DNA of 64,000 nt, from the NCBI GenBank assembly GCA_000965745.1, contig CP009479.1, positions 1,312,457-1,376,456 on the forward strand, written 5' to 3'. A program made the translations under genes and the position numbers. Below the pieces are notes generated by a model that had not been told where the DNA came from, searched no databases, and was given only the letters and a program-made list of their open reading frames with translations. Positions 35,206 to 37,929 of this stretch are shown here, one piece after another (position 1 is the first letter of the stretch; every line of letters starts with the position of its first letter). The DNA is from an uncultured archaeon (GTDB lineage Archaea; Thermoplasmatota; Thermoplasmata; Thermoplasmatales; Thermoplasmataceae).

Positions 35206-36351
35206 TCAACTCTGATAGTTTCTTGACCTTATGAGCCTTATATTGAATTCCCCGACGGCATCCCTGTCTATCTGGTGGTGACAGTTCTTGCACTCTAGGG
35301 ACAGGTCATCCTTCAGGCTGAAGGTAAAATTCCCGCAGCTGGGGCAGGCGCTCCTCACCCAGAAATTCTCAGGTTTGAGCATTTCCCTGCTGCTTCTGGG
35401 AAGGATCTGTTCGGGCTGCTGGTCCTGCACATTACCTTCATCAGGGTGCGGAACAGGCTCGCTCTGCCGGGCGGCCCTCTCTTGCGTGGCTTTGCTGAAA
35501 AGGGTTATGAAACTGTAAACCCCCACGAGGGACCAGACTATCAGAAACCCGTACATTATGTATGGCACAAGCGGGATCTGGTTCAACTGGAGTATGATGT
35601 TGAACTGTGAAACCGTAAAACCGGAAACGATAGAGCGCAAGAGCCCGAACCTGATGTAAATGTAATTCATTACAAAGAAGCTCACGAAGTTCAGTATTGA
35701 TGACCCTATGTCCACGGAGGTAAGAAGCGAAGCTATGCCTGCGGCCAGTACGATCACGGGTAGCTCAGCCTGTTTTAGACTCCGGTCCGGGTTAAGAAAA
35801 GCTTTCAGGCTGAGTTTCCTGCTGAAAGAAAGGTACAGTAATGTTAGTGCAGAAATGGGCAGAAATTGAACTATTATTGATTGTGAAACGGTTGAGCCTA
35901 TGAAAACGAAGTTCTGAGCCGGAAGGCTCATTCTGAGAACAGGATCATTTGCATAAGAGGAGCTTATCTGAGGAGAAATGAGGGATAGAACAAGTTCTAT
36001 CAGGATGAATATTGAAAGGTACCTGAAGAAGGAAACCCTGTTGGATGGCCTCACCCCAACTGACAGGCCTTCTCTTCCAACGAAGAGTGTGGCTATGGAG
36101 CCTGTAACTATGACGGCGCTTATGGCAAGGAGAATATAGATAAGCATCGGGTTTGCTGTCAGATCCAGCAGGAAATAACTGTATGGATTCAACGCCGATA
36201 TTTCTCCTGTGGACGAGATGGTCCCGGGGAGAAGGGCATAGAACGAAATGATAGCTGAAAGAATCCCAAAAACTCCAAACGCGAACAATGCTCTGGCAAA
36301 AAGATGCCCTATCAGGTCAGTCCTCGGAGATGGGATTTGCTCGTCATCCAT
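35206..36351 (-). CDS. Polytopic membrane protein with C-terminal zinc ribbon
   Basis: A 381-residue protein with about seven membrane helices, a charged linker (residues 290-325) and a C-terminal zinc ribbon made by CPSCG and CKNCHH. The ribbon probably faces the cytosol. I do not recognise the family; similar zinc-ribbon membrane proteins are frequent in Thermoplasmata and may serve in signalling or protein quality control, which is inference. Confidence 0.75.
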   Translation of the reverse strand: MDDEQIPSPRTDLIGHLFARALFAFGVFGILSAIISFYALLPGTISSTGEISALNPYSYFLLDLTANPMLIYILLAISAVIVTGSIATLFVGREGLSVGVRPSNRVSFFRYLSIFILIELVLSLISPQISSSYANDPVLRMSLPAQNFVFIGSTVSQSIIVQFLPISALTLLYLSFSRKLSLKAFLNPDRSLKQAELPVIVLAAGIASLLTSVDIGSSILNFVSFFVMNYIYIRFGLLRSIVSGFTVSQFNIILQLNQIPLVPYIMYGFLIVWSLVGVYSFITLFSKATQERAARQSEPVPHPDEGNVQDQQPEQILPRSSREMLKPENFWVRSACPSCGNFTFSLKDDLSLECKNCHHQIDRDAVGEFNIRLIRSRNYQS

Positions 36352-36571: not shown

Positions 36572-37180
36572 ATGCAAAAGGCGCGCTGCGTCCGCATCGT
36601 CTACAGAGACAGCTATATCACCTCATTCAGGAGAATGATAAAAAACAAGCTGGTTCTTGCCTCTTTTGTTCTGATTTCTTTGGGCATCATCCTGTTCGCT
36701 ATATCTCTGCAGCAGGCTCAAGTCATCGATTCCAAGCTCATCCAAACAGGTTCCGTTGCCGTCGACAACAGTTCATATTCAAGCGTTTACTTTGGGGAAC
36801 CTGCAAACCTTAACTCAACACTCACGTTCGTAATCCCTTCAAACCATGCTGTTCAGTACAAGATTTACAGCATCAACAACTATACGGTGAATTTCCACGC
36901 CAAGACTTCCATTGCCCTTGTCTCCGAGGGCTATGCTTTCAATGGCACCAAAGTCGATGTCAAACCCGTATCCAACCCTCAGGGACAGGAATATATGATG
37001 ATGCTCAAATCAAACAACGGAGCCTCGTTTAAAGTCTATGCAGACATCACTGCCAATATATTTCTGGCTGAACCCTCAAACAAGAATGTAGGCGGTCCTG
37101 GTGTGATGTTTGGAATGGTCGGGGCAGTTTTGCTCGCAGCAAAAATATCTTTCATATACGGGCAGCTGAAAACAATTTGA
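36572..37180 (+). CDS. Secreted-domain membrane protein of unknown function
   Basis: A 202-residue protein with one hydrophobic helix near residues 27-46 and a second near the C-terminus (about 177-195), with an extracellular beta-rich part between them carrying N-x-S/T sites. I do not recognise the family. ATG 36572 follows a TATA-like stretch closely; ATG 36635, just before the first helix (MIKNKL), would also fit. Confidence 0.6.
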   Translation: MQKARCVRIVYRDSYITSFRRMIKNKLVLASFVLISLGIILFAISLQQAQVIDSKLIQTGSVAVDNSSYSSVYFGEPANLNSTLTFVIPSNHAVQYKIYSINNYTVNFHAKTSIALVSEGYAFNGTKVDVKPVSNPQGQEYMMMLKSNNGASFKVYADITANIFLAEPSNKNVGGPGVMFGMVGAVLLAAKISFIYGQLKTI

Positions 37181-37215: not shown

Positions 37216-37929
37216 TCATTCCAGAAATACAGAGATCCTCTTGCTTATCTTTCCTTTTACCAGTGAAGTCTTGAACTTGACTGTTCCAACCTCGCTGGTG
37301 TTTTTCACATTTGTTCCAATCTCATGCTGCAACGGCAGGTCTCCTATCTTCAGCACCCTGATCTTGTCAAAGTCAGGAACCTCGTTCTTGCTAATGGCCA
37401 TGAGATCGCTGTCATTCTGGAACTCTTCCTTTGAGAGGTAGAATGTCTCGGTATCGAGGCCGCTCTTCAATGCCTTGTTGGCCTCATCCTCAAGAGATTT
37501 GACCATTTCCTCGCTGATTTCGTCAACCCCGATATCAATCCATGCCTGGTCCTCATAAGTCTGGTTTATTCTGTTTGTGGCCCTATAGAGGCGGAATGCA
37601 AGAGAAGTTATAACCTTCAGAGCTGTCCTGAACTTCATGTGCTGATATCTTATGTCCCAGTTGATTACCTGGTGTACCGGCTTCCCTTTTACGTCTTCTG
37701 AATAGGTGTCAAGAGACATAATGTGGACTTCATTGCCATCTGACCATACATCATTTATCGGGTATGTCCTGCCATCAATGATTACCTGCCCCTTGTCATT
37801 AGGCTGTCCTCCACCGGTGGGGTAAAAGACAGTCCTGTCTACAATAAGATCGGTGAATTCGAACCATTTAACGGTGCCATCGCACTCCTTCAGATAGGCA
37901 TCGTCAAGATAGAGAAGCTCTGTATCCAT
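37216..37929 (-). CDS. alaX: AlaX-like alanyl-tRNA editing protein, zinc ligands lost
   Basis: A 237-residue AlaX-family protein, which normally clears mischarged Ser- or Gly-tRNA-Ala. The fold motifs FYPTGGGQP (residues 35-43) and the C-terminal NTSEVG are clear. The zinc site is not: the HxxxH that should read HTALH is RTALK (R101, K105), and the CxxxH that should read CGGTH is EIGTN (E203, N207). All four ligands are therefore replaced. The start ATG 37929 is preferred, since the upstream 32 residues from 38025 do not match the family. It may bind tRNA without editing, or use another mechanism. Confidence 0.82.
   Translation of the reverse strand: MDTELLYLDDAYLKECDGTVKWFEFTDLIVDRTVFYPTGGGQPNDKGQVIIDGRTYPINDVWSDGNEVHIMSLDTYSEDVKGKPVHQVINWDIRYQHMKFRTALKVITSLAFRLYRATNRINQTYEDQAWIDIGVDEISEEMVKSLEDEANKALKSGLDTETFYLSKEEFQNDSDLMAISKNEVPDFDKIRVLKIGDLPLQHEIGTNVKNTSEVGTVKFKTSLVKGKISKRISVFLE

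Follow-up and report, generated by a model that had tools for sequence, protein, structure and literature searches.

A Family-Wide AlaX-M Homolog without Zinc Ligands Is Encoded beside a Predicted Membrane Protein in Thermoplasmataceae

Thermoplasmataceae are acid-loving archaea. The window, a stretch of 64,000 nucleotides from an uncultured member of this family, encodes on its minus strand a homolog of the tRNA-editing protein AlaX-M, here called pseudo-AlaX, and an adjoining gene for a protein with long hydrophobic helices, here called the partner. The reading frame of pseudo-AlaX lies exactly at the position given in the initial annotation of this DNA. The features of the locus are as follows:

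37216..37929 (37929 -> 37216), minus strand: pseudo-AlaX gene, 237 codons plus stop, 237 amino acids, AlaX-M fold without zinc ligands
37615..37629, minus strand: RTALK, residues 101–105, the former HxxxH zinc motif; residue 101 is Arg in all orthologs read, residue 105 is K/R/F/Y
37570..37572, minus strand: R120, Arg in 38/38 representatives of the clade versus Thr in 57/60 canonical sequences
37309..37323, minus strand: EIGTN, residues 203–207, the former [CD]GGTH motif; residue 203 is Asp or Glu in 38/38 representatives, residue 207 is variable
36572..37180, plus strand: antisense open reading frame of 202 amino acids between the pair, weakly similar to reading frames at two other loci (L121 and L126)
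35206..36351, minus strand: partner gene, 381 amino acids, long hydrophobic helices and a C-terminal zinc ribbon (CPxC...CxxC), adjoining pseudo-AlaX

The AlphaFold model of the 237-residue protein (pLDDT 94.5, pTM 0.91, 44 aligned sequences) has as its top fold match the editing domain of AlaRS (2zzf, Z 27.7) and matches AlaX-M of P. furiosus (9iuw, Z 24.9) and P. horikoshii (2e1b, Z 23.9) over its whole length. Lower in rank are the editing domains of ThrRS (Z 11.5–14.5) and chains of the mitochondrial ribosome (Z 9.9–11.4), which are presumably mL39 (MRPL39). Pseudo-AlaX is a stand-alone reading frame with no fusion to a synthetase. The best NCBIfam model for it is AlaXM (NF040865) at 178.7 bits, below the curated cut-off of 300; the canonical AlaX-M paralog of the same genome scores 291.9 bits, likewise below this cut-off. 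The Pfam model tRNA_SAD (PF07973) gives a sub-threshold 17.6 bits (cut-off 24) for pseudo-AlaX and 36.7 bits for the canonical paralog, and Pfam also detects the C-terminal region of AlaRS in the 237-residue protein.

In the window protein, the four zinc-ligand positions are occupied by R101, K105, E203, and N207. At the sites of RTALK and EIGTN the solved AlaX-M and AlaRS chains have HTxxH or HSxxH and CGGTH, and in our alignment the canonical paralog (L003) has HTAIH and DGGTH. The 146 rows of our tree hold three ligand patterns and none other: Arg first (66 rows), HHDH (71 rows), and HHCH (nine rows, all from other families of the class). All 59 tree rows of the order that lie outside the Arg-first clade are HHDH, so three histidines were lost in the pseudo-AlaX clade and the cysteine had already become aspartate beforehand. 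The initial annotation, which had read four ligands as lost, is therefore borne out as to the ligand sites but not as to a loss of cysteine in this lineage, where an acid stays at position 203 (Asp in 20 and Glu in 18 of the 38 representatives). Asp in place of the Cys ligand of AlaRS and the solved AlaX-M proteins is seen in AlaX-M of the order, for example in L003 (928–1665). Among the same 38 representatives, position 105 is F, R, K, or Y, and position 207 is Q, N, L, H, D, Y, or V, with one gap. Lys or Arg at 105 is combined with Glu at 203 in 32 rows and Phe or Tyr with Asp in 31, whereas K/R with D occurs in three rows and F/Y with E in none; this distribution looked like charge pairing, on too few changes in the tree (3 and 4). 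Given that the 38 clade rows were chosen by Arg at 101 and the canonical rows by HHDH, the counts of Arg at 101 and of HHDH within these two sets are circular, and the non-circular ligand counts are those by profile score (69 genomes) and by row pattern (146 rows).

A substituted metal site, which the initial annotation had named as a result that would speak against its reading, was looked for in the alignment, and no clade-specific conserved His or Cys that could form a replacement set was found; the conserved histidines H69 and H97 are present in the canonical copies as well. The pocket is altered too, in that R120 occupies a column which we take to be that of the serine-recognizing Thr30 of AlaX-S. 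One canonical AlaX-M, that of genome G038 (L212), has the HHDH ligands, yet Arg replaces its pocket Thr (LRGGQ). Judged from these positions, zinc-dependent editing by pseudo-AlaX is very unlikely. Hydrolysis of mischarged tRNA could in principle go on without metal, through chemistry of the arginines and the acid or on a different substrate, and the strong conservation of the protein, including its Gly-rich motif (G41 in 38/38 and Q42 in 35/38 representatives), is what would be expected of such an enzyme. However, neither the metal site nor the pocket Thr is retained, and positions 105 and 207 vary in a way that a catalytic site would not, and we regard this explanation as rather improbable.

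Full or partial orthologs of pseudo-AlaX, scoring at least 227 bits against the clade profile, were found in 69 of 77 Thermoplasmataceae genomes and in 18 of 19 genera; in every one of the 69 the first ligand position is occupied by Arg. The replacement is thus shared by the family, as an alignment of the kind proposed in the initial annotation would reveal, and is not an error in a single genome. All but one of the 69 orthologs score at least 281 bits, the last (227 bits) being cut by a contig end, and the gene is present in every family genome with a completeness of at least 90% and a contamination of no more than 5% (35/35). The other eight genomes (G010, G017, G032, G052, G067, G069, G075, and G076) are 62–86% complete; one of them, G032, has a 60-residue N-terminal fragment of pseudo-AlaX at a contig end, and two, G075 and G076 (76% and 68% complete), make up g19, the sole genus in which the gene was not found. 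Records that carry pseudo-AlaX include Thermoplasma sp., Thermogymnomonas acidicola, Cuniculiplasma sp., and E-plasma. Beyond Thermoplasmataceae, matches to the profile stayed at or below 183 bits, both in the 40 other genomes of our order sample (117 genomes, 77 of them Thermoplasmataceae) and in a sample of 194 genomes of the phylum that partly consists of the family. In genome G066, the full pair on contig C69 is accompanied by another pseudo-AlaX copy, a partial one with a membrane-partner gene of its own (C64:1710-3077), which represents either a second strain or a duplicate.

According to the initial annotation, the other fold motifs are intact, and neutral decay would hardly strike just the four ligand places. 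We find that the changes extend beyond these places: among the 35 non-ligand columns in which canonical sequences show at least 93% conservation, the pseudo-AlaX clade keeps 15, switches three to another fixed residue (R120, W130, and P199), and relaxes 17, although in three of the latter conservation drops only slightly, to 0.92. The argument from four isolated sites therefore falls, although the pattern is still one of constraint. A further 18 columns, the start Met not counted, are newly constrained, that is, conserved in the pseudo-AlaX clade and below 60% in canonical sequences; these are mainly E24–D27 and positions within 60–77. Compared with canonical AlaX-M (9iuw, 2e1b, and the Thermoplasmatales paralog), pseudo-AlaX thus has the same fold throughout its length and the same G41, W91, R94, D132, and K225-G226-x4-R231 tail, but is without the zinc ligands, has Arg for the pocket Thr, and differs in its newly constrained N-terminal positions and in its membrane-protein gene neighbor.

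The residues W91, R94, K225, G226, and R231, common to both clades, would suit a protein that binds tRNA, perhaps tRNA-Ala, and aids its charging or delivery, the neighboring gene being incidental. A direct precedent is the AlaX-like domain (AXD) of Plasmodium TrpRS, in which D9, S13, N116, and V120 replace H9, H13, C116, and H120 and which is reported to aid tRNA binding and aminoacylation (PMC3680381). That domain likewise combines an AlaX-like fold with replacement of all four ligands, but it is fused to a synthetase, is compared with AlaX-S, and is eukaryotic, whereas pseudo-AlaX is free-standing, of AlaX-M type, and archaeal. The median net charge, -8 in both clades (63 pseudo-AlaX and 38 canonical family rows; pI 5.09 versus 5.54), gives no hint that pseudo-AlaX binds RNA more strongly, though canonical AlaX-M binds tRNA at the same charge. 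Because a role of this kind would leave both the constant membrane neighbor and the new N-terminal constraint unexplained, our analysis makes it a possible but unlikely account of the protein.

The gene is under strong purifying selection, with a median dN/dS of 0.051 and a maximum of 0.103 over 16 pairs, some sharing a sequence. Together with the improbability of zinc-dependent editing, this points most naturally to a new role; in this respect the proposal of the initial annotation is upheld. The canonical copies give a median of 0.316 over 29 pairs, a value dominated by family f15, whose odd composition was flagged in the trees, and hence no basis for comparison. Mean identity between genera is 50.8% for pseudo-AlaX and 51.6% for canonical AlaX-M over 91 genus pairs, with pseudo-AlaX the higher in 39. 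Decay of a functionless duplicate could begin with the loss of catalytic residues, but 69 genomes from 18 genera keep the frame open, although contig ends cut some copies, and we assign this explanation a negligible probability. A pseudogene is ruled out by the dN/dS of about 0.05 together with between-genus identity that matches that of the canonical copies.

With the ligand columns omitted, the 66 Arg-first rows form a single clade (SH-aLRT 100), which is also recovered with 100/100 in a 60-row tree, in which each genus of the family contributes a single row for each copy and from which the HHCH rows and L080, L150, L185, L190, L192, and L193 were left out. A long stem branch leads to this clade (0.78 changes per site in one tree and 1.24 in the other). 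Nesting of pseudo-AlaX with the canonical copies of the family is rejected (p-AU 0.0137), whereas nesting with these copies plus the f15 rows is not (p-AU 0.22), and given long-branch effects the duplication is not firmly dated. An AlaX-M with the ligands H,H,D,H from a Micrarchaeota metagenome-assembled genome (L150 6001–6714) groups with the canonical copies of Thermoplasmataceae (SH-aLRT 97), suggesting transfer or a binning error.

The second AlaX-M of the window genome (L003, G000:C1:279302-280015) is canonical (H,H,D,H) and lies about 1 Mb from pseudo-AlaX. Pseudo-AlaX and canonical AlaX-M were each read in 14 genera that have both, which is consistent with pseudo-AlaX being a regulatory subunit of canonical AlaX-M in a hetero-oligomer of active and inactive copies. 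The distance between the two genes in the window genome does not favor this arrangement, however, and in genus g6 canonical AlaX-M was not found in any of three genomes (G030, G031, and G033; 96%, 88%, and 83% complete), where the best matches to the canonical profile fall far below those of other genera (E 1e-58 to 1e-62). Pseudo-AlaX seems to persist in g6 without canonical AlaX-M and so need not be its subunit, a role that we judge highly improbable. The pairing of pseudo-AlaX with an apparent absence of canonical AlaX-M in g6 could also be cited in favor of metal-free editing; against this, the AlaRS proteins of the three g6 genomes retain their editing ligands, as do all eight genomes examined (H,H,C,H in 8/8, the three from g6 included). 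In g6, a search with an AlaRS profile returned nothing beyond AlaRS, pseudo-AlaX, and a single match of 19 bits in G031.

The partner gene is a near-constant companion of pseudo-AlaX, which the initial annotation missed. Counted once per genome, it stands next to pseudo-AlaX in 67 of the 69 genomes and in at least one genome of each of the 18 genera. In 62 of the 69 it lies downstream in the same orientation at a distance of up to 1.4 kb, with a gap of less than 150 nt between the profile matches in 52 of these 62, and in five, all belonging to g15, the genus of the Thermoplasma records, it is adjacent on the opposite strand; of the two remaining genomes, one has a contig end at this point and the other, G031, has the partner on another contig. 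The left flank varies while the pair stays, with folC/cdc6-like, truA-like, thyX-like, and TFB-like genes (named from sequence reading), whereas on the right an MFS gene and uL16 are frequent. Since these two genes are often conserved nearby, the adjacency may partly reflect slow change of gene order. The window itself has a gap of 864 nt between pseudo-AlaX and the partner, which contains the antisense reading frame at 36572..37180; several g4 and g6 loci likewise have an antisense reading frame between the pair, but that of the window does not match its g4 and g6 counterparts, and it may not belong to the locus. A transposase-like reading frame, judged from its sequence, lies between pseudo-AlaX and the partner in G002 (L082 550–1752).

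The partner proteins are about 360 residues long across genomes, and their hydrophobic helices lead us to infer that the partner is a membrane protein. Its AlphaFold model (pLDDT 82.5) has no match among PDB folds at an E value of 0.001 or better, and Pfam gives only weak zinc-ribbon matches, results that establish no new fold and assign it no function. More distant relatives occur in other families of the order, which have no pseudo-AlaX, and in G075 (g19; L228 4326–7164) uL16, the partner, and the MFS gene stand together where pseudo-AlaX was not found. The partner therefore does not need pseudo-AlaX, and the arrangement in G075 possibly represents the locus before the arrival of the gene or after its loss.

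Taken together, these observations lead us to favor, with moderate confidence, the reading that pseudo-AlaX is a metal-free, nonhydrolytic, free-standing pseudoenzyme derived from AlaX-M that may act as a binding or scaffold subunit with the membrane protein. The side chains of R101 and R120 and the acid at 203 would fill the emptied metal and amino acid pocket, and zinc-assisted hydrolysis of mischarged tRNA would thereby be lost. The newly constrained N-terminal part (E24–D27 and scattered positions in 60–77) would provide a binding surface, and pseudo-AlaX would be the soluble subunit alongside the zinc-ribbon membrane protein, as their constant gene adjacency suggests. Candidate ligands are tRNA, the ribosome, a small anion, or the partner alone. 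Clearance of Ser-tRNA-Ala would be left to AlaRS and, where present, to canonical AlaX-M.

An editing-domain-like fold within a ribosomal protein is known from MRPL39, which is related to ThrRS and sited at the exit site of the mitoribosome (PMC4099522). Pseudo-AlaX shares fold similarity alone with MRPL39, which is much more distant from pseudo-AlaX than AlaX-M is. We nevertheless mention, as a speculation to which we give little credence, that pseudo-AlaX and its zinc-ribbon partner could form a module that docks translation, through the ribosome or charged tRNA, at the membrane of Thermoplasmataceae and would be an independent archaeal counterpart of MRPL39.

AlaX isoforms are treated in general terms in PMC11295145 and PMC3158927, and the literature searched showed no report of this protein. 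On present evidence we place the protein, as a putative member, among the pseudo-editing domains and not among the AlaX-M editing enzymes. Since the closest NCBIfam model is that of the editing protein AlaXM, naming the clade from that model would mislead. The conversion of a stand-alone editing factor into a pseudoenzyme throughout a family would be a clear example from nature of how a tRNA-quality-control fold acquires a new job, and the partner gene makes this job of pseudo-AlaX testable.
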